A DNA stretch of 64,000 nucleotides from Thermococcus sibiricus MM 739 (lineage in GTDB: Archaea; Methanobacteriota_B; Thermococci; Thermococcales; Thermococcaceae). A model generated the notes under the pieces. It had not been told where the DNA came from and searched no databases. It saw nothing but the letters and a program-made list of their open reading frames with translations. The position numbers were made by a program, and so were the translations under genes. This document shows, piece by piece, positions 9,510-43,682 of this stretch. Location of the stretch: assembly GCF_000022545.1 (NCBI RefSeq), contig NC_012883.1, positions 1,418,276 through 1,482,275 of the forward strand. The letters run 5' to 3'. Within the stretch, counting starts at the first letter, position 1, and each line of letters starts with the position of its first letter.

Positions 9510-12500
9510 TTATGAGAAAAAGTCCTCCAAGTTAATAACTTTTTTAGACTGTTTCTTCTTTTTAGGCTTTTGAATTTCTTCTTTTTCACCTTTTTTCCTC
9601 TTAATCTGCCGCTCTTTTACTGATGACTGTTTTTTCTCGGTCTTTTTCCATTTACCATTTTCTTTAAGCTCATCAAGATACCCATTGCCCTTCACTGTCC
9701 TTCCAGTCCTTTCCGCTATCATCCTATCACATATATCCCTATGGTTTAGGGCAAGGAGGGTTCTCTGGGTTTCCGGGAAAACGTTCTGAAAGAGGCTTTT
9801 GATATCTTTCTCGGTAACACATATCCTTTGCCTTGTATAGTCAATTACATTGTATTTAGCTACAAGCATTTTTGCTGTAGGCAGATACTTTTCAATAGCC
9901 CCTTTTGAAACTGTTAACACGATTTTCCCGCCACACTTTGTGCATTTACCCCTTAAGGGCGGCCTTCTATATTTGGTGTTACATTTCACACATCTAAACT
10001 CCTGTCTTGTAAAACTTCTCAGGTTTCCTCTTAGATCGGGGACTATGTGTGAATTTATTATGGTCTCTGCAACGTGATGTTCATTCACGGCCCTTATTCT
10101 CTCAGCTAAGGCCAGTTGGTGGCTAACCTTATCCACCATATCTCCCAACTGCTTGTAAAGGCTCATTTTCGGGCCGAGTGCTATGTCATCGGTATCATGA
10201 GTGAACTTCAACCCCTCATACATCTCCGGCTTTCCTAAACGATCCTCAACTCTCTCAATGACTCCAACGACTTCCTTTGGTGACTTAAGCTCGTAGGTTG
10301 CCCTATAAAACTCTAAGGGATAGTATCTAACTACGTCCATATTATGGACTTCACTGTCAACTTCCCTGGGATCTAAACGGGTGGTAACCACCAAAGGAGC
10401 GTCCATTTTGCCTCCACGCTTTTCTGGGAGATAGTAGCGCGAGAAGTTGAGCAGGGCATCTAAGAGGAGCATTACAGAATCCTCATCGCCATCACATTGA
10501 TGTGTCACAATATTTTCATTTATTAGGACATTGTGGTAGTTTTTAGCATTTAATGAGAACACAAAGTCACCAGTCGGTTTGACGAATTCTATCTTTTTAA
10601 TAGTAATCTTGAGTGGTTTTGAATCTGATTCATCAATTACAACCATTATATCACTTTCTTTTACTTCAAAAGCTCTTTTCTTGAAGAATTTTCCATTTTC
10701 ATAAACGAGTACTGGATGATCTATAGTCGTCTCGAAACTCCTTCCAAGTTCAAGCTCGAACCGGATTAAGTGATCTGTAATAGGGGCCTTTATAACATCC
10801 TCGATATCTGTTAGGACAACTTTACCTGTCTCAGGATCAAAGGAATATACTTTAATGTCAGCCTTTGGTTTTTTCCTCACATAAACCATATTCTCATAGT
10901 GTTCATCTTCAAATAACTCATATAATTCCTTAAGCGTTATCCTCTGTGGAAATCCATCAATCTGCACCAATATCCTGGTTTCTCCCGGGAAGCAATTCCT
11001 CCTCTTTGCTGCGTGATAGTATGGGTGGGCATACCCCACAAGGGCATCAACAAAGCCAATAATTCTTCCAATAATTCCAGCTGAGGTGTGAGGGGCCAAA
11101 CCTATAACCAAATGACCAATAAGATCTTCCATTTTCTCAACGTTGTAGAACCTCGGCAGTCCATAAACTTTATCAAGGAGATCATCTACAAACTTTGCTA
11201 CTTTAACAAGATACCTGCCGGCTTCCTTTGAGAGTATTATATCCTGAACTTTGAGCTCAAGAATTTGGTCTCCACTTACAAGCGGCTTTCCTTCGAAGTC
11301 GTGAGTGTATCCCAGTTCCTTAAGTTTCTCTATACTGACTCCTATCTCTTTGGGTTTGAAGTGAGTTATTGGAGCATCTGTTGCATCAAACCTTATAGTG
11401 CCATCTTTGAAGACATAAACATCGTTCCTCGCCCTTAATATTCCCTTTTCGAGGGGTTCTGCTATCTTGTGGGCAGAACTCATACCCATTACGCCTTTGA
11501 GTTTATCAAGAGTGTAGATCCCAACATTTTGCATGGCACTGTTCAAGAGTTCAGAAGGGCTTATCCTTCTCCTCTTGTATGGTTTCATTTCGATGTCACA
11601 TTTCGGACATCTGGTGTCTAATATAGATTCAAAACCACACTTGGGACAGTGGTAGAGGAGTTTTGCTTCCTCTCCGCATTCAGGGCATGTTGGGAATATA
11701 TCCACGTGACCACAGCTGGTACACTTGAAATGTGCAATTTCAACATCAGATGTTTTCCCCTCTTGAGCAGCTTTGTAGATGTCTCTTGAATTGCCTCCGG
11801 CCAAACCAATGGGGAAAAGAACATGAACAGGAGGCTTCATTTTTCTTTCTTTTGCCTTTTCGGGCCTTCCCATTCTACTCCCAATCCAACTTATTCCCCT
11901 ATCCCTTAACTTAATATCACTTATCTCATTTATGAGGTCAATAGGGGTGTGGAATTCTTTAAACTCAATCTTCTTCTCCAGGTTAGCTAGGGGGGTTAAA
12001 ACGGCAGCAGCCCAGGGATAATCTACAATCACGGTATCTCCTTCTATAATATGTTCAACTCCAAGGAGTTCCAAATAACGTTTTGCACCCCCTAATGTCT
12101 CCAGACTTATTTCAAGTCTCTTTGCATATCTAAAGCCCCTGTACTCACCCCACTCAATTGTGGCATTCACAAGAGCATTCTGAAGTTTTATGAGCTCTTC
12201 TACTGTGAGAGTATTCCAATACAAAGTATAGTACGGATGAAGAGGTATTTTTAGTATATTTGATAGGTGAAGGGCCTCTTCAATAGTAGGCTTAGTTACA
12301 AGAGGATCATAAAGGAGCTTTGCTAGGGTTTCCGGCTCAATATCCAAATAATCAGCGGCTTCCTCCACAGAATCCCTCTCATTTTCCTGAAATGGCCTCA
12401 ATTCAAGTTCATAAACATCATTGACAGTCTCTACAAGCTCCTGAATCCACCATTCTTCCACATAGTTGGCCGGCAGAAGCGTTTGATTGTTCTCAACGAA

Positions 12501-13838
12501 ATCTCCAAACGCTATTAAAGCATCCCCCAAGTATAATATCTCCTCTACTCGGTCTTTAAGCTCAAGGGCCTTGTGATAATCATCAACCCTCACAACACTC
12601 CCATCTTTCAACTTAACTATAGGGCCCTCAATTGTACTTGCAGGTGTAACGATACATCCTTTTCCAGGCCTTTCCGTTTTCATTTGAGTTCCCACTGCCA
12701 AGAACTCGTCCACCATTATCATAACCGCAGGATTTATTGACCATGTTGCAAACCCGCTAACCCTGCTCCTTCCATAGCGAAGTCTAAATCCCCCATTGGT
12801 GGAGGGTTCCGCAAATAACGGTCTTCCCCCAATAATCTCTTTTGTATACTTTGCATTCGGGGATATGGTCGCCTTAAGCTTTTCATAGAGTTCATGATAA
12901 AAGCCTTTTTTGATTTTTGTTGTTTCTCCTACAGCTGTTTCAGTTTTACTCTCCTCCAATGCTTTTTCTTCCTTTTCATCACTCTTACCTTTCTCTTTGG
13001 CCTCAACAAATTCTTTTAACCATTCCCAACCATCTATCCCCATTTTGTCAATGTACTTAACTAGCTTGTTCGCTTTCTGTAGAACACCCTCGGCAATTAC
13101 TAAAATTGCTCCGCCTCTCAGATAATTTGTTTCTACTCCCGGAACATTTCTATGACTAACCTCAACATTGTCCGTAGTTTCTCCCGTAATCTCTATTGGT
13201 ATATTTCTAACAGCTAAACGAACCTCATCTGGAGAAGGATAATATTGGAGTCTGGTAACCGCCCTGTGATAAAGATCAATCTCCTCTACATACCTTTCTA
13301 CATGCTCCTCTGTGAGTTTGAACCTATCCAAACCAAGTTTTTTCCTTACATAATCTCCAACAAGAACACTAAGGGCCTGAGCAGTGCCACCACTACTTCT
13401 GATAGGGCCTGCATAATAAACAGCTAGATAATTCGTGCCATCCTCATTTTTCTTTATTTTAACGTCAGCTATTCCTTCCAAGGGGGCAGAAACAATACCC
13501 TCTGTAAGAATGGCTAAAGCTGTTCTAACACATTGATCAGCGAGCTGTTCTTTGTTTTCAAACTTCTTAAACTTTCCTTCTATTATCTCATCAACGACTT
13601 TGAGGGCAGCAAGTTCTTTACCGTATTCTTTTACAAGAGATCTAATTCTTTCAGCAACACCTTTGGGGCCCACAAGACTCTCAACTCTTCCAGCCATATC
13701 TGTTGCTTGAGGAACTTCAATTTCTTGTGTGGGATCTTTCCCCTGAGAACGAGCCTTTTCAGCTATTTCGTACGCTTTATCAATCTCTCTCTGCAAGAAT
13801 TCAAAATATTTTTTCATTTCTTCACTGTAAATTTCCAT
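9510..13838 (-). CDS. polC: DNA polymerase D large subunit DP2, with intein
   Basis: Catalytic subunit of the euryarchaeal replicative family-D polymerase, which extends primers with the small exonuclease subunit encoded just upstream. Of the 1442 codons, 166 belong to an intein, leaving a 1276-residue mature protein, close to the usual 1260-1270. The catalytic aspartates lie in the QCDGDEDS motif created by splicing. Two cysteine clusters are visible: CTSCGHVDIFPTCPECG with CPKCGF and CPKCDI near residues 705-750, and FRCVKCNTKYRRPPLRGKC near 1290. The C-terminal tail is lysine-rich and ends with a short NLEDFF peptide resembling a PCNA-interacting motif. It follows the DP1 gene by 11 bases, in one operon with orc1/cdc6. 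Confidence 0.97.
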   Translation of the reverse strand: MEIYSEEMKKYFEFLQREIDKAYEIAEKARSQGKDPTQEIEVPQATDMAGRVESLVGPKGVAERIRSLVKEYGKELAALKVVDEIIEGKFKKFENKEQLADQCVRTALAILTEGIVSAPLEGIADVKIKKNEDGTNYLAVYYAGPIRSSGGTAQALSVLVGDYVRKKLGLDRFKLTEEHVERYVEEIDLYHRAVTRLQYYPSPDEVRLAVRNIPIEITGETTDNVEVSHRNVPGVETNYLRGGAILVIAEGVLQKANKLVKYIDKMGIDGWEWLKEFVEAKEKGKSDEKEEKALEESKTETAVGETTKIKKGFYHELYEKLKATISPNAKYTKEIIGGRPLFAEPSTNGGFRLRYGRSRVSGFATWSINPAVMIMVDEFLAVGTQMKTERPGKGCIVTPASTIEGPIVKLKDGSVVRVDDYHKALELKDRVEEILYLGDALIAFGDFVENNQTLLPANYVEEWWIQELVETVNDVYELELRPFQENERDSVEEAADYLDIEPETLAKLLYDPLVTKPTIEEALHLSNILKIPLHPYYTLYWNTLTVEELIKLQNALVNATIEWGEYRGFRYAKRLEISLETLGGAKRYLELLGVEHIIEGDTVIVDYPWAAAVLTPLANLEKKIEFKEFHTPIDLINEISDIKLRDRGISWIGSRMGRPEKAKERKMKPPVHVLFPIGLAGGNSRDIYKAAQEGKTSDVEIAHFKCTSCGHVDIFPTCPECGEEAKLLYHCPKCGFESILDTRCPKCDIEMKPYKRRRISPSELLNSAMQNVGIYTLDKLKGVMGMSSAHKIAEPLEKGILRARNDVYVFKDGTIRFDATDAPITHFKPKEIGVSIEKLKELGYTHDFEGKPLVSGDQILELKVQDIILSKEAGRYLVKVAKFVDDLLDKVYGLPRFYNVEKMEDLIGHLVIGLAPHTSAGIIGRIIGFVDALVGYAHPYYHAAKRRNCFPGETRILVQIDGFPQRITLKELYELFEDEHYENMVYVRKKPKADIKVYSFDPETGKVVLTDIEDVIKAPITDHLIRFELELGRSFETTIDHPVLVYENGKFFKKRAFEVKESDIMVVIDESDSKPLKITIKKIEFVKPTGDFVFSLNAKNYHNVLINENIVTHQCDGDEDSVMLLLDALLNFSRYYLPEKRGGKMDAPLVVTTRLDPREVDSEVHNMDVVRYYPLEFYRATYELKSPKEVVGVIERVEDRLGKPEMYEGLKFTHDTDDIALGPKMSLYKQLGDMVDKVSHQLALAERIRAVNEHHVAETIINSHIVPDLRGNLRSFTRQEFRCVKCNTKYRRPPLRGKCTKCGGKIVLTVSKGAIEKYLPTAKMLVAKYNVIDYTRQRICVTEKDIKSLFQNVFPETQRTLLALNHRDICDRMIAERTGRTVKGNGYLDELKENGKWKKTEKKQSSVKERQIKRKKGEKEEIQKPKKKKQSKKVINLEDFFS
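10497..10994 (-). mobile_element. Mini-intein in PolD large subunit
   Basis: In-frame insertion of exactly 166 codons at residues 949-1114 of the precursor, between AAKRRN and CDGDEDS in the polymerase active site. It begins CFPGETRILV (block A), has TTIDHPV (block B with the TxxH histidine), and ends NENIVTHQ followed by the extein Cys. There is no LAGLIDADG endonuclease between blocks B and F, so it is a mini-intein. The last residue is Gln, not the usual Asn, as known for Pyrococcus PolII inteins. Confidence 0.95.
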
Positions 13839-37884: not shown

Positions 37885-38999
37885 TGAACCCTCATGCCGA
37901 ACCTAAATATGAGGATCCTCTCTTGAGCATTATTGATATTTGGGCTAATAAGGTTATTGAGTCAGAAGATCAATATTCGGAAATAACAAAATTATTTGCC
38001 ATTTTATACAAACAGACTAAGGATACAGAGTCTTATTTTACCACTCGAGTACCTTATCCCGCCAATGAAAGATACGATATGAAAGATATTCTTTACTCTC
38101 TTGTAGTCAAGGATTATTCTCAATTACAAATACATATACCACAGATTCGAAACAATTATTACAAATTACTAGAAAGAAGTCACTTTAGACGTCTCGATAA
38201 GCTTATCGAGTTGCTCAAAGAGGGATTATTCTTTGAGGTGATTATTCGTAAGCGAAATATTGCCCCGTCATTACTTAATGAAGACTTAGTAAATAGAATT
38301 ATTGAAGCATTAGATACTTGGAACCGAAAAGATTACTCTACCATTATAAAACTCTTCAAATCGACATTTTCATCTCAGATAGCCGAAAACCATGAAAATC
38401 TCAATCTCGATGAGTTTGATGAGATTGAATTAGCTCTGTTATCACATTTGTTTTTTGAAAAATATGTAACTTCTGGGGATCACGTAGCTTTGTATAACCA
38501 TTACAAGAGCATTGAAGCGTTAATAAATATGTTAAAAGAGTCCTCAAATATAATAAATGCTCCCAGCGAAAAAACCTTAAGGATGTTATTTAAAATTGCT
38601 ACAATTCTTAATCTAACTGGTTATTCTAACTCTCTATCTCTTCCTAACGAAGAAAGACTAAAATATCTTAACTCAATGCTTGTGTTACCCCCCTTAAGAT
38701 CCATTTTCGAAGAGAAAGTAAAAGATGCCATAAAAATAGGATTTGAAATTAAAAAAATACCCGGTGTAGGGTGGGATCTTGAAAGCCCTGTAAAGATGAA
38801 AATGCCCCTATATCTTGGAATTGTTATTCTAATGATACTGTCCTCAATCCCCATTTTTGTAAATGAAAATATTCTAAGTATCAAGCTATCGTGGAAGTTT
38901 TATGTATTTTATTACACGATATGGGTAATTTTAATGCATAAAACGTTTAGACTATCTGAAGATATTATCAAAGAACTCTGGGGGGATAAACATGAATAA
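37884..38999 (+). CDS. Unknown AT-rich operon protein with C-terminal membrane hairpin
   Basis: I do not recognise a family. The first 310 residues are mainly helical and charged, with no nuclease, NTPase or toxin motif that I can identify. Two hydrophobic helices follow near residues 312-330 (YLGIVILMILSSIPIFV) and 340-358 (FYVFYYTIWVILM), then a short charged tail, so the large N-terminal part should be cytoplasmic and membrane-anchored. The ATG overlaps the hsdS stop (TGATG), and its 3' end overlaps the next gene by 8 bases, so it is coupled to both. Strong AT bias suggests recent transfer. By analogy with membrane effectors of archaeal short Argonaute systems, it may be an effector for the next gene. 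Confidence 0.75.
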   Translation: MNPHAEPKYEDPLLSIIDIWANKVIESEDQYSEITKLFAILYKQTKDTESYFTTRVPYPANERYDMKDILYSLVVKDYSQLQIHIPQIRNNYYKLLERSHFRRLDKLIELLKEGLFFEVIIRKRNIAPSLLNEDLVNRIIEALDTWNRKDYSTIIKLFKSTFSSQIAENHENLNLDEFDEIELALLSHLFFEKYVTSGDHVALYNHYKSIEALINMLKESSNIINAPSEKTLRMLFKIATILNLTGYSNSLSLPNEERLKYLNSMLVLPPLRSIFEEKVKDAIKIGFEIKKIPGVGWDLESPVKMKMPLYLGIVILMILSSIPIFVNENILSIKLSWKFYVFYYTIWVILMHKTFRLSEDIIKELWGDKHE

Positions 39000-40347
39000 T
39001 AAATTTAATACTAGTTTATATATCGCCCATGTGGAGGCAGAGAAATTTCCAAATCTCCACAATCTAAGAGTCTCAATATTCGACACTATAAAACAAAAAG
39101 AAGACCAACTAACCCCAAAAGGTTTTGTGCTTTATGAAAACGAGATGAATGTTAGTTTTTATGAATCATATGTTGGACGAATAATGGTCTCGTACAAAGT
39201 GAATTTCATCCCAAAGGATAGGATCATACTTTTGTCATTTTATCCAAGATCAAGCACCGATAGCCATGACAAAGACCCAAAATACTGGGGAAAATTAAAC
39301 AATCTGAACATAGGTAAAAGAGTGTTAGAGTTCACCGATGTCCTTGGAGATGTATTTGAAGTTGCTATTGAAGATTATGGTGTCTTAAAATTCAAAAGAA
39401 TATTTTATACAAATCACATTGATATCTCTAACTGGAATGTGCTTCTATTTGATAGGATTAGATATCCTCTTGACCAAATACTGAAAAATTGGAGAACAGT
39501 GTATGAACACATACTCGATGATGCTAAAAAAACCAAATATATTTTTGTGCTTTTCTCAAGTATCCCATTTAGTAAAGAGGTAGATCCTAAAACCAAAGAA
39601 TCTGGTATAAAAGCGATTGAGAGTTTAAAACAAGAACTACAGAGACTTGGAGAAGTTCATGGCCCTTATAACCTACTTAATTTCAAATACATCCTCGAGG
39701 GATATCCCAAAGAGACCAAACTGATAGCAATATTCATTGAAAATGACGAAGTAATATCAAGTGTTTATAAGAACTTTAAAAAATATTTGGATATCAAAAA
39801 CATTCCGAGTCAGTTCATATCTATAAATACGGTTAATCAGAAGTTTACATACCCTAAAGTCAAACTAAACTTTCTTTTAGAGACGCTAAGTAAAATCAGG
39901 GATAAGAAACCAATTTCTTTAGAACCCACGCTCAGTGTTTCCTTAATTGACGGTATTCTCTGCCTATCAGATGTGAAAGATGCAAGTAAAATACCCCGAC
40001 AGCGGTTATTTGGAGCACTTTTTATGTATACCTTGTCTAACAAGTATGAAGAAATCCATATTTATGAAGACATAAACTACAGAATTAGTAAAGGAGGACA
40101 TATTGTATTCGAACTAGATAGTTTATCTCGTCTTGCTGAATATGTATCACTCCTTGGTGGACTTGAAAATTTGAAGATTGATATTTTTCTGACACGACCC
40201 TGGAAAGAAGGAGATATTCAAAAATTCATAGAAAAATTATCTGAAAAAGGTTACGACGTAAACCGGGTATATTATATCTCCACACTACGGGCAAGGTCAA
40301 CGGATGAAGCAATATTAAACAATCCACTAAAGCAGAACAACGTATAA
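38992..40347 (+). CDS. Argonaute-like MID-PIWI protein, interrupted by an in-frame stop
   Basis: The 451-codon product looks like a divergent prokaryotic Argonaute. Residues 245-305 resemble a MID domain: IAIFIEND, then Y259-x3-K263, PSQF with Q274, and NFLLETLSKI with K301. This reproduces the Y-K-Q-K set and approximate spacing that binds guide 5'-phosphates in Argonautes. A PIWI-like region begins at PTLSVSLID (about 312), with IHIYED (D360) at the position of the second catalytic Asp. The frame stops at TAA and then continues open for 112 codons with PIWI-like C-terminal sequence. An N-terminal part of about 150 residues is unassigned, and there is no PAZ domain. It overlaps the membrane-protein gene by 8 bases. 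Alternative: another Rossmann-like defence protein. Confidence 0.6.
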   Translation: MNNKFNTSLYIAHVEAEKFPNLHNLRVSIFDTIKQKEDQLTPKGFVLYENEMNVSFYESYVGRIMVSYKVNFIPKDRIILLSFYPRSSTDSHDKDPKYWGKLNNLNIGKRVLEFTDVLGDVFEVAIEDYGVLKFKRIFYTNHIDISNWNVLLFDRIRYPLDQILKNWRTVYEHILDDAKKTKYIFVLFSSIPFSKEVDPKTKESGIKAIESLKQELQRLGEVHGPYNLLNFKYILEGYPKETKLIAIFIENDEVISSVYKNFKKYLDIKNIPSQFISINTVNQKFTYPKVKLNFLLETLSKIRDKKPISLEPTLSVSLIDGILCLSDVKDASKIPRQRLFGALFMYTLSNKYEEIHIYEDINYRISKGGHIVFELDSLSRLAEYVSLLGGLENLKIDIFLTRPWKEGDIQKFIEKLSEKGYDVNRVYYISTLRARSTDEAILNNPLKQNNV

Positions 40348-40699: not shown

Positions 40700-41134
40700 A
40701 TGGCATATTGGCTCTGCATTACGAATCGTGACAATTGGAAGGTTATTAAAGAGAAGAACGTCTGGGGTGTGCCGAAGAGGCATAAGAATACAATTGCCAA
40801 AGTTAAGCCCGGCGATAAGCTCCTCATCTATGTGAAACAAGAGCGCAAGGACAAGCAAATTCTTGAGCCGAAGATTGTTGGAATTTTTGAGGTTGTTAGT
40901 GAGCCTTATGAAGACTCAAAGAGGATTTTCAAAAGCCCACCACACAGCAATGAGACTTACCCCTTGAGGGTCAAAATCAAACCCGTGAAACTTGGTGAAG
41001 TTGACTTCAAGCCATTAATTCCAAAGCTGAGGTTCATCACTAACAAAAAGAAGTGGAGCGGCCACTTAATGGGCAAAGCCATGAGAGAAATCCCAGAAGA
41101 GGACTATAAGCTAATCAAGAAACTACTTCGATAA
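40700..41134 (+). CDS. EVE domain protein
   Basis: A 144-residue PUA-like EVE domain, a family thought to read modified bases in DNA or RNA and often found near restriction genes. Family features are [30 protein letters not shown] at the N-terminus (with W-G-V), [13 protein letters not shown] near residue 35, [14 protein letters not shown] near 58 and the C-terminal [27 protein letters not shown] precedes the ATG by 6 bases. It is 13 bases after the end of the interrupted Argonaute-like frame, hence probably in the same operon. Its codon use is less AT-rich than the two genes before it. Confidence 0.9.
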
Positions 41135-41310
41135 TCTCTTACGAACCTCAAATGTGAGGGATGGCAAGTAATTAGTAAATTCCCATTTTTTGTTTATGTC
41201 ATGCTCGGAGCAGCCTTTGATTTAACCACTGTAACCTATCCGCCCTAAAAGAGGCTTTCGAAAGAAAAATGTAACTATCGATAAGTTTCTCAGGAGGGTT
41301 TTTCCACAAA

Positions 41311-41321
41311 ATTTATATATT
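41311..41321 (+). promoter_or_regulatory. TATA box of the AAA ATPase gene
   Basis: ATTTATATATT lies about 35-45 bases before the chosen ATG. Transcription would begin inside the palindrome that follows, giving a very short leader. Confidence 0.65.
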
Positions 41322-41324
41322 TAA

Positions 41325-41351
41325 GGACATACCCCATTATGGGGTGTGTCC
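41325..41351. promoter_or_regulatory. Palindromic operator upstream of AAA ATPase
   Basis: A 27-base palindrome with core ACCCCATTATGGGGT flanked by GGACA on the left and TGTCC on the right; 12 of 13 base pairs match. It covers the predicted transcription start, so a bound protein should block initiation. A second copy of the core lies just after the gene. Confidence 0.7.
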
Positions 41352-41355
41352 ACAA

Positions 41356-42444
41356 ATGTTGTTTGATGTACACCCAAAGACATCAATTACTGAGCTTTTT
41401 GGGAGAAGGGCAGAGTACCTTAGCTTCATAGAAGCTGTGGAGAAACGTAGAAATTTCTTCATAATTACCGGTCCTCGTAGAATAGGGAAAACGAGCTTTC
41501 TCTATGCCAGCCTCAATGAGCTTGAAAAAGAATATGGAATCCCATATGCAGTGGTGGATGCAAGGGCCGCAACTTCCATCAACTCCAAGTATCCTCAGAG
41601 AATTATATCTGAGCGGCTCTACAAGGCCCTCGTGAGCAGAGGTTTTGTAGGAGGAGTAGTTTCAAAGATAAAGGGTATAAAAATCGGAGGGATCGAGATA
41701 GAGACTGATGAGCACAACATTGACATAGTGGATATACTCTCAGCAATAAACGAGGGGAACGAGCTGGCCATAATAGCCTTTGATGAGGCTCAATACCTCA
41801 GGTTTTCAAATGAAGATTTAACAAAGCTTTTTGCATGGGTGCTTGACTCCTTACCCAACGTGATTCTTGTTTTCACAGGATCTCAGGTGGGAGTTTTGGA
41901 GAACTTTCTGCGCCTTGAAGATGGAAAGGCCCCTCTCTTTGGTAGATACGAAGTAAGGATAAATCTTCCTAGATTCAACCCTTCCGAGAGTTTAGAGTTC
42001 TTGAGAAGAGGATTTGAAGAGTACAGTATAAGAGTGAACGAGAGAGAGCTGTTACCTGTAGTGAACACTCTAGATGGAGTTCCCGGGTGGTTGGTGCACT
42101 ATGGAGCCCGCAGGATCGATGGACTCACCCACGATGAGGCCATTGAGAGAGTCCTTAATGAGGCCATGAAATATGTAGAAACAGAGTTTGAAGAGCTAGA
42201 CAAGCTATCTCCCAGATACAAGATCATTATGAGAATTGTCGCACGCCTGAGTGAGGGAAGAGGACACGCAAGATGGGATAGAATAAAGAACCTTGCAGAG
42301 GAAGAACTGGAAGAAAACATTGACGAGAAATCTATGAGGAAGTACCTCTCAAAGCTTGTGGATTATGGATTCCTAGAGACCATCGGATACGGAAAGTACC
42401 GGATACCAGATCCCGTTATGTACCGGGTCTTCAGGAGGATGTGA
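41356..42444 (+). CDS. Archaeal AAA ATPase (ATPase domain 2 / DUF234 type)
   Basis: Member of the STAND-like archaeal ATPase family abundant in Thermococcales. Walker A is FIITGPRRIGKTSFL near residue 38, Walker B is LAIIAFDEAQYLRF near 140, sensor 1 is VLVFTGSQVG near 173, and a C-terminal winged helix (about 275-362) includes SMRKYLSKLVDYGFLETIGYGKYRIPD. The ATG is 4 bases after the palindrome. An in-frame GTG 12 bases earlier lies inside it and is less likely. The gene is bracketed by two ACCCCATTATGGGG palindromes, which suggests that the protein or a partner binds them. Cellular role unknown. A defence or mobile-element link is often suspected. Confidence 0.88.
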   Translation: MLFDVHPKTSITELFGRRAEYLSFIEAVEKRRNFFIITGPRRIGKTSFLYASLNELEKEYGIPYAVVDARAATSINSKYPQRIISERLYKALVSRGFVGGVVSKIKGIKIGGIEIETDEHNIDIVDILSAINEGNELAIIAFDEAQYLRFSNEDLTKLFAWVLDSLPNVILVFTGSQVGVLENFLRLEDGKAPLFGRYEVRINLPRFNPSESLEFLRRGFEEYSIRVNERELLPVVNTLDGVPGWLVHYGARRIDGLTHDEAIERVLNEAMKYVETEFEELDKLSPRYKIIMRIVARLSEGRGHARWDRIKNLAEEELEENIDEKSMRKYLSKLVDYGFLETIGYGKYRIPDPVMYRVFRRM

Positions 42445-42455
42445 CAAATCATAAA

Positions 42456-42480
42456 GAGGTACCCCATTATGGGGCCCCTC
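42456..42480. promoter_or_regulatory. Second palindrome downstream of AAA ATPase
   Basis: The same ACCCCATTATGGGG core as upstream of the gene, here with different outer arms GAGG and CCTC that again pair with each other (10 of 12 pairs). It lies in the 50-base gap between two convergent genes, so it may act as terminator, binding site or element boundary. Confidence 0.65.
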
Positions 42481-42494
42481 TAGTAAACCAAGGA

Positions 42495-43682
42495 TCATTT
42501 CCTAAAAACCCTCGCCACCAGCACCAAACCCAGGATAAGCCCGGGGCCGCAGATAGTCCCTGTTTGCTGTGAGGTAGTATCTGATGGTGTGGTGGTTTGA
42601 GAAAGTTCAACTTGACCTGAGGGAAGCTTAAGCTCAAAGGGCTGGCCAACGCACCTAAGCAAAAGTGGATTATCGCTCTCATCATAAGCAATCCATGAGT
42701 ATTTTCCTCCCTTTTCATACCAGCCTATGTGGGAGTTGTAACCTGATTTCCCTTTCTCCGCAACCTCAACGATTGCTTCAATGTCTTCATCGCTTATGTT
42801 TATTATTCCCTTCTCCTTCAACCATTCGAGCTCTACCCTCAGGGCCTCCTTAAAATTGAAGGAATATGGATCAACAACACCCACGGGAGCGTTTGTGGTC
42901 TCGGTTTTAAACTCTATTTCCTCAAAAGCACATGCTATGCCGAGCTCTTCAAAAAGAGCCTTCAAATCGGCTATATCCCCTTCACTTGGCTTCTCTTTTC
43001 CATAATCTGCTATGTAAACTTCGGCAAGCGGGGGCTTAATGACCTTTGAGGGGTCAACCCCGTAATCCTTCAAGCACTTCTCGAAATCCGAATTGGGCTT
43101 CCACGTGCAGAGCCCGTTATAACAGCCACATTGAGTTAACCTCAAGCAATTATACCACTCCCTGTACACACATGGGGTTACGATTTCCTTTGCAACTTCC
43201 TTTGGAGCACAAACTTCTCCAGAACAGCCTCCCGTTGCACAATCTGAATCGCTCTCGCACTCATCACCTTTCCTAGAGCTTATCTGCACAAATAAACTCC
43301 TCTTCCTGAAGGTATAGTCTTCAACATCCCACCCCAGGGCCTTAATCTGCTCCAAACTTTGGTTAGAAATTAACAAAGGTGTTTCAAAAGATGTGTAGGC
43401 ATACTTAGATTCAAAGCTTTTCGCAGGTATTTGTATTCTAACCAACAGAGAAGAATCAACTTCCTTCAAAATAACGGCCACTCTATCATCGTAGTGAGAA
43501 CGATATATTATGCTTCCATTTTCAATTATTACATTTTTAGCGTCCTTCAAGGAGGTTAGATCATGTTGGATGCCCGGTTTGTTTAGACGAACCTCCAAAG
43601 CCAGGGAATCCATCGGGTTATAACATGCACTAACCAGAGGTGCAATCAATAAAAGCAATGCCAAAACAATCACTCGCTTCAT
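42495..43682 (-). CDS. Heavy-Cys/CGP-CTERM surface protein
   Basis: Exported, membrane-anchored protein typical of Thermococcales. It has a signal peptide (KRVIVLALLLLIAPLVSAC), a globular N-domain, and a cysteine-rich segment near residues 137-205 (C-x5-C-x4-C-x3-C, then C-x6-C, C-G-C, C-x9-C). A second domain follows, and after a Thr/Ser/Gln-rich stretch it ends with the CGP-CTERM signal TICGPGLILGLVLVARVFRK. The C-G-P motif with hydrophobic helix and basic end is thought to mark anchoring or processing by a dedicated system. Function of the globular part is unknown. It is convergent with the AAA ATPase gene. Confidence 0.9.
   Translation of the reverse strand: MKRVIVLALLLLIAPLVSACYNPMDSLALEVRLNKPGIQHDLTSLKDAKNVIIENGSIIYRSHYDDRVAVILKEVDSSLLVRIQIPAKSFESKYAYTSFETPLLISNQSLEQIKALGWDVEDYTFRKRSLFVQISSRKGDECESDSDCATGGCSGEVCAPKEVAKEIVTPCVYREWYNCLRLTQCGCYNGLCTWKPNSDFEKCLKDYGVDPSKVIKPPLAEVYIADYGKEKPSEGDIADLKALFEELGIACAFEEIEFKTETTNAPVGVVDPYSFNFKEALRVELEWLKEKGIINISDEDIEAIVEVAEKGKSGYNSHIGWYEKGGKYSWIAYDESDNPLLLRCVGQPFELKLPSGQVELSQTTTPSDTTSQQTGTICGPGLILGLVLVARVFRK

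Follow-up and report, generated by a model that had tools for sequence, protein, structure and literature searches.

The question raised by this locus is why a single ATPase gene should lie between two palindromes that share one core, and whether these palindromes regulate the gene, mark the ends of a mobile unit, or both. The window, i.e. the whole stretch of 64,000 nucleotides of Thermococcus sibiricus MM 739 that was analysed, holds the 14-base core at positions 41331-41344 and again, unchanged, at positions 42461-42474; that the two copies have the same core had been stated in the first-pass annotation. ACCCCATTATGGGG is present in exactly two copies in the 1.85 Mb genome, both of which flank one gene for an AAA+/winged-helix ATPase. 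For the first-pass annotation, many unlinked copies in the genome would have counted against its proposal; a genome-wide count over 1,845,800 bases gave zero copies of CCCCATWATGGGG beyond the two that flank the ATPase gene. At the G+C content of the window, about 0.007 copies of a 14-mer core are expected by chance, and chance was rejected as the origin of the pair on the basis of this expectation, of the uniqueness of the pair in the genome and of the shuffle tests described below. G+C-rich palindromes of the 6+1+6 form number only three in the 64 kb; two are the ATPase-flanking pair, and the third, of 13 bases, sits within a long coding frame, a 1442-aa ORF (9510-13838) that we take to be the DNA polymerase II large subunit with an apparent intein. 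The features of the locus are as follows (a solo site being a single palindrome at which left flank meets right flank and the ATPase is absent):

41312-41320, plus strand: TATA-like box TTTATATAT, read upstream of the ATPase gene; its aligned counterpart in G082, a relative with a solo site, is AATTTATAT
41325-41351, unstranded: upstream palindrome GGACATACCCCATTATGGGGTGTGTCC, putative operator and left unit boundary; 12 of 13 pairs matched
41356-42444, plus strand: ATPase gene, AAA+ (PF01637) with a C-terminal winged helix; 362 aa from the likelier ATG
42456-42480, unstranded: downstream palindrome GAGGTACCCCATTATGGGGCCCCTC, a direct repeat of the core and putative right unit boundary; 10 of 12 pairs matched
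42475-42482, unstranded: right-hand flank CCCCTCTA, retained at the G082 solo site

The TATA-like box ends four bases before the upstream palindrome, so that transcription would be expected to start within the palindrome; the first-pass annotation, which had placed the upstream copy over the predicted start of transcription, agrees with this position. The listed GTG start at 41344, which would give a protein of 366 aa, falls inside the palindrome. The ATG at 41356, which opens the sequence MLFDV..., is the likelier start, since in one related clade a stop codon immediately precedes that ATG. Directly upstream of the ATPase gene, positions 40700-41134 code for an EVE-domain protein that has close homologues elsewhere in many Thermococcales genomes, and two genes before the ATPase there is a 451-aa protein (38992-40347) that has no Pfam match and in PADLOC resembles prokaryotic Argonaute only weakly (E 0.00058).

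The upstream palindrome is found in all eight genomes with a window-type ATPase, its outer arm being weakened in G003, and the second copy in seven of the eight, G003 being the one without it. In the window's downstream palindrome the outer arms GAGG and CCTC are paired, with two unpaired positions inside them. It had been proposed that the outer arms, although different in the two copies, each pair with their own partner, and that this points to selection for a palindrome. The pairing holds for both copies in the window itself but, among the seven genomes with both copies, the downstream arm is paired only in the window and in G083; in the other five the left arm reads GGAC (or AGAC) and the right arm CCTCT or TCTCT, and the argument for selection thus fails for the downstream copy. 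This bears on the view that the palindrome is an RNA hairpin, or a terminator or insulator for convergent genes, as had also been suggested. The next gene downstream in the window is indeed convergent, its frame ending 15 bases after the palindrome. However, the upstream copy lies at a promoter, the outer arms are unpaired in five of the seven downstream copies, solo copies remain where the gene is gone, the palindromes enclose the ATPase in neighbourhoods that share nothing, and a search of positions 41200-42600 against Rfam gave no match, on which an RNA element was rejected. An insulator is unsupported, and a hairpin is the least probable of the explanations weighed here.

The ATPase scores 66 bits against PF01637 (curated cut-off 33.2), and the Walker A and B residues G43, G48, K49, D147 and E148 are invariant across 30 homologues. 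An AlphaFold2 model (mean pLDDT 88) shows a winged-helix region at residues 291-365 with helices and strands; the MCM_C Pfam score is slightly below cut-off in this protein and above it in two relatives. Full-length sequence matches were obtained to two solved proteins, 2fna (E 1e-33) and 2qen (E 3e-43), which the model also matches in fold (Z 35.1 and 37.3, respectively). The closest distinct fold is that of Orc1/Cdc6 (1w5t, Aeropyrum ORC2, Z 22.9; 2qby, DNA-bound, Z 19.4), followed by plant and animal STAND ATPases (Z about 19-21) and TnsC (Z about 15.7). Pfam, the full-length solved homologues and the fold comparison of the model gave no recombinase, transposase or nuclease domain in the ATPase. 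Homologues are present in 84 of 94 Thermococcales genomes, and at E<=1e-40, among 115 genomes of the phylum, the family is confined to the six genera of the window's own family. Among 72,556 plasmid and 50,697 phage records no homologue was found, so that no vehicle for the unit is known from these records; a plasmid or phage vehicle was rejected on this ground.

If the palindrome belongs to the ATPase, it should accompany other members of the family. From the matches we chose 84 distinct homologue genes and read the flanks of 80, four being left out with an incomplete gene or flank; a non-redundant set of 44 genes, under 85% protein identity, was scored by comparison with 99 dinucleotide shuffles of 70 bases, with 80 neighbouring genes as controls. 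A palindrome at p<=0.05 lies upstream of 32 of the 44 homologues, as against 6 of the 80 control genes (Fisher p=5e-14), and downstream of just 7 of the 44; several clades nevertheless have a second copy past the stop codon. The upstream and downstream stretches of the same gene match each other (score >=12) in 14/44 cases, compared to 17/300 crossed pairs (p=2e-6). The letters of the palindrome vary by clade, being CCCCATWATGGGG in the first type and CCCCCTTTTNGGGGG, CACCAGTWACTGGTG or CTTACCCC/GGGGTAAG in others, with tandem AACTTGC...GCAAGTT and GGTACC-centred types in further clades. Pairs of the first two types enclose ATPase genes, the sole other cargo being in G040. A third type (CAAGTWACTTG...) was found in 28 of the 94 genomes, with seven sites that have no ATPase nearby and one with a 31-residue remnant only (flanks compared by eye, in two genomes). 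The autoregulation suggested by the first-pass annotation, with the palindrome as a putative protein site, is supported by the position of the upstream copy and by the clade-specific palindromes that precede most family members.

The match between palindrome and ATPase clade, together with brackets that hold only ATPase genes (bar one segment in G040), ties the site to the ATPase. It also speaks against the idea that the unit is a passenger, moved in trans through the palindrome by a site-specific recombinase or transposase that has gone unrecognised, with the ATPase outside the reaction. The lack of a catalytic recombination domain in the ATPase would fit such a passenger, as would the direct-repeat layout of the sites, which resembles attL and attR around an integrated element; we nonetheless consider it quite improbable.

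The core of the window palindrome was matched in 24 of the 94 genomes. Eight of these have an occupied window-type site (G000, G001, G003, G019, G023, G047, G064 and G083). At ten solo sites the left flank meets the right flank at one palindrome; nine were found by the core (G014, G017, G026, G031, G034, G039, G040, G043 and G068) and the tenth, in G082, through searches with the flanks. At the G014 solo site the left side matches only the left arm of the downstream copy. Left-only remnants, with 17-26 ATPase codons, are present in G016, G038 and G040, and ten further matches have the core alone in common and are otherwise unrelated. In G082 the promoter side and the right side of the window meet at a single palindrome, joined at CCCATTATGGG, and its flanks are identical to those of the occupied sister G083 at 298/300 positions on the left and 284/300 on the right. 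G082 and G083 are draft assemblies; an assembly artefact was rejected, since solo sites also occur in the single-contig genomes G013, G014, G021, G031 and G034. Window-type sites are spread over three or more neighbourhoods without detectable mutual similarity, represented by the window, G083 and G082, by G001, G019 and G068, and by G023, G047 and G064 with their solo relatives.

Other arrangements were seen around these sites. In G040 (L161, 1912-3557), window-type palindromes enclose a 26-codon ATPase remnant and a DUF4143-type AAA_14 ATPase, and about 170 bases of the left flank are repeated. In G082 (L149, 1067-2720), the EVE gene is separated from the solo palindrome by an insert of 2.5 kb, in which a gene for an AbiEii toxin (E 5.8e-23) is accompanied by a partner gene; in G023 the occupied site is followed by an AbiEi-like gene. 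In G074 (L150), of the same genus, about 0.9 kb of unrelated DNA lies between the EVE and convergent genes, and both palindrome and ATPase are absent.

At the locus of the window itself, the ATPase and its neighbour seem to have been inherited together by vertical descent, silent identity between G000 and G083 being 0.85 for the ATPase and 0.87 for the neighbour (p=0.83), with no apparent sign of recent movement; the mobility of the unit is thus inferred from relatives.

The relatives are most informative at a second locus, beside a gene for an M20 peptidase that is single-copy in 88 of the 94 genomes. The second-type palindrome, CCACCAGTWACTGGTG, is present in 33 of the 94, and the state of the site was read in 61 genomes of one genus (outside the genus, 9 of 33 were sampled). 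Eleven are occupied, 12 have a perfect solo palindrome, eight an altered one (six recognised by a shorter pattern, two by eye) and 16 no trace; three have broken or partial ATPases (G054, G056 and G067), three are doubtful (G016, G018 and G060), four have a different ATPase beside the palindrome, and four yielded no M20 gene. The ATPase and M20 genes of G043 are on separate contigs. In many comparisons the match between solo and occupied flanks stops only a few bases short of the palindrome. The flanks of G025 and G063 are identical at 277/296 and 272/296 positions. Strong selection on the solo palindromes is unsupported, several having drifted.

On an M20 tree of 22 genomes (10 occupied and 12 solo), the state of the site needs eight changes, no fewer than with shuffled labels, and at least five are forced by well-supported branches. 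The solo genome G013 is nested among two occupied ones, G040 and G017, which suggests a loss. For the occupied G025 the sister genome is the solo G063, but the ATPase of G025 falls with those of G023 and G062; the M20 data reject this grouping (AU p=0.017), and the conflict reads as a gain. The grouping of the ATPases of G030, G032 and G069 is not rejected by the M20 data (p=0.19).

The second-type locus, with its differing ATPases, is an insertion hotspot. Another ATPase type adjoins the palindrome in G042, G048, G061 and G068 (L183, L186, L256 and L257); in G061 and G068 it has the reverse of the usual orientation. In G034 (L180, about 1515-1560) a short promoter remnant of a different ATPase gene, which is kept in G045, adjoins the solo palindrome, as if this second ATPase gene had been removed too.

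We also measured identity between genomes at fourfold silent sites. The ATPase is clearly more similar than M20 in 7 of 45 pairs; the other 38, which serve as the baseline, have the ATPase above M20 by at most 0.04, or lower. Values for the ATPase and M20 are 0.75 and 0.49 in G023-G062, 0.78 and 0.59 in G025-G062, and 0.69 and 0.46 in G030-G069; for G030-G032 the ATPase is at 0.88 (144/164), with 0.52 (70/134) for the left neighbour and 0.55 (142/259) for the right. Fits of one change point, made separately for each side and given relative to the gene, placed the steps in G030-G032 at -53 (support -91 to -14) and +43 (-98 to +44), in G030-G069 at -33 and -19, and in G032-G069 at -40 and, loosely, at +245 (-51 to +464). 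In G025-G062 the left step is at -51 (-56 to +4), and the right boundary is not fittable because the right flanks are unrelated; the left side of G023-G062 is uninformative. For the window type, the ATPases of G023 and G064 have a silent identity of 0.87, against 0.45 for M20, and the shared stretch takes in about 130 bases to the left and 60 to the right of the palindrome. Among relatives at the second locus, the comparisons show transfer between species, with an identity step near the palindromes. A sharp step favours exchange at the palindrome over recombination in the flanks; one pair contradicts this, and informative pairs are few.

Most of these observations have to be set against a plainer account, in which the palindromes are an autoregulatory operator only (the second copy serving for looping), solo sites arise by deletion between short repeats, and gains by homologous recombination in the flanks after DNA uptake. 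It accommodates the location of the palindrome where transcription would begin and its family-wide occurrence upstream of the gene, the vertical inheritance at the window locus and the drift of solo palindromes (six altered by pattern, two by eye), as expected of unselected scars. Deletion between direct repeats would leave exactly one copy, as found, and in G017-G040 high identity continues for 682 bases on the left side, the pattern expected of ordinary recombination. Against it, the step is best placed no more than about 100 bases from the gene end in two pairs, G030-G032 and G030-G069, as it is for the left side of G025-G062 and of G032-G069; both neighbour genes in G030-G032 are at background silent identity; the repeated core has just 13-25 bases; and at the second locus clean solos (12 perfect and 8 altered) exceed broken or partial genes (3). 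We give operator, short-repeat deletion and ordinary recombination, taken together, somewhat less than an even chance, and this account stays close behind the best reading.

The reading that we prefer, with a probability of about 0.5, is that the palindrome is both the operator of the ATPase and the boundary at which a one-gene unit is gained or lost, the unit being a direct-repeat arrangement of promoter, palindrome, ATPase and palindrome. Autoregulation and a mobile-unit boundary, which the first-pass annotation had listed as alternatives, are each reasonable and may be two sides of one phenomenon; the boundary draws support from relatives, through solo sites, gain and loss, and identity steps. 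The main new result is the precise presence or absence of the ATPase at the palindrome, which the comparisons demonstrate along with the bracketing, the clade-specific upstream palindromes, the exact solo sites and the repeated switching of state. The palindrome is clade-specific and sits at the expected transcription start, and the protein carries a winged helix; most probably, therefore, the ATPase uses this helix to bind its palindrome and acts as a repressor of the promoter in front of its gene, and the palindrome repeated after the gene would mark where the unit comes and goes. An occupied site would then have two direct copies and an empty one a single copy, the DNA outside the palindromes being unchanged: loss would leave one palindrome, and gain into a solo palindrome would produce two again. 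Bound ATPase may hold both ends together, while a host or other trans-acting enzyme would carry out strand exchange. More tentatively, and in our view rather unlikely, these units could form a minimal class of mobile element, in which an Orc-like ATPase directs site-specific insertion and excision at solo palindromes, relying on host enzymes in place of a recombinase encoded by the unit; the operator would also be the attachment site, and every clade would have evolved a palindrome of its own.

A large archaeal ATPase family that is structurally solved and functionally blank would gain a testable role, as DNA-binding proteins with a candidate site beside each gene, and the solo-palindrome alleles of related genomes, several of them single-contig, are natural empty controls. 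If the ATPase drives movement, genes would have a means of mobility that needs no recombinase; otherwise, the sites still offer a clear case of single-gene turnover between species at fixed places.

In titles, abstract openings and some passages (PMC3124441, PMC5495485, PMC4158269, PMC5760070, PMC4599002 and PMC8219681) we found no description of palindromic bracketing or mobility of PF01637/SSO1545/PAB2304-type ATPases, nor, in titles and abstract openings, of palindrome-bracketed or palindrome-bounded ATPases in general, most subscription journals lying outside this scope. The window ATPase is alike in full-length sequence and fold to the SSO1545/PAB2304-type archaeal AAA+ ATPases (2fna and 2qen; PF01637). 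With Orc1/Cdc6 it has in common an AAA+ domain plus a winged helix, a similarity of fold only. Archaeal Orc1/Cdc6 proteins bind dyad DNA boxes. Orc1-2 is reported to work as a promoter regulator (PMC9738581). In contrast to Orc1/Cdc6 and its origin boxes, no origin or plasmid replicon was seen at the window locus, and the sites flank the gene and come and go with it. STAND NTPases (NLR, CED-4) are related in fold, and no sensor or effector domain was seen in the window ATPase. The PADLOC candidate PDC-S27 is a weak match (E 1.3e-10), and AbiE genes lie near some sites. TnsC-type transposition ATPases are AAA+ proteins that load on DNA, with the distant fold match given above; unlike in TnsC systems, no transposase partners were seen beside the window gene. 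Integron cassettes, IS200/IS605 elements and homing genes likewise combine a small gene, one or more palindromic ends and precise presence or absence. The unit described here differs from them in that it encodes no integrase, transposase or endonuclease, and from DDE and Y1 transposons and insertion sequences in general in that it encodes no transposase, Pfam giving the ATPase and winged helix only. Unlike homing endonuclease genes, it has no nuclease domain, and the palindrome is duplicated around the ATPase gene, not split; and unlike integron cassettes, its cargo is nearly always the cognate ATPase, with one other cargo, in G040.
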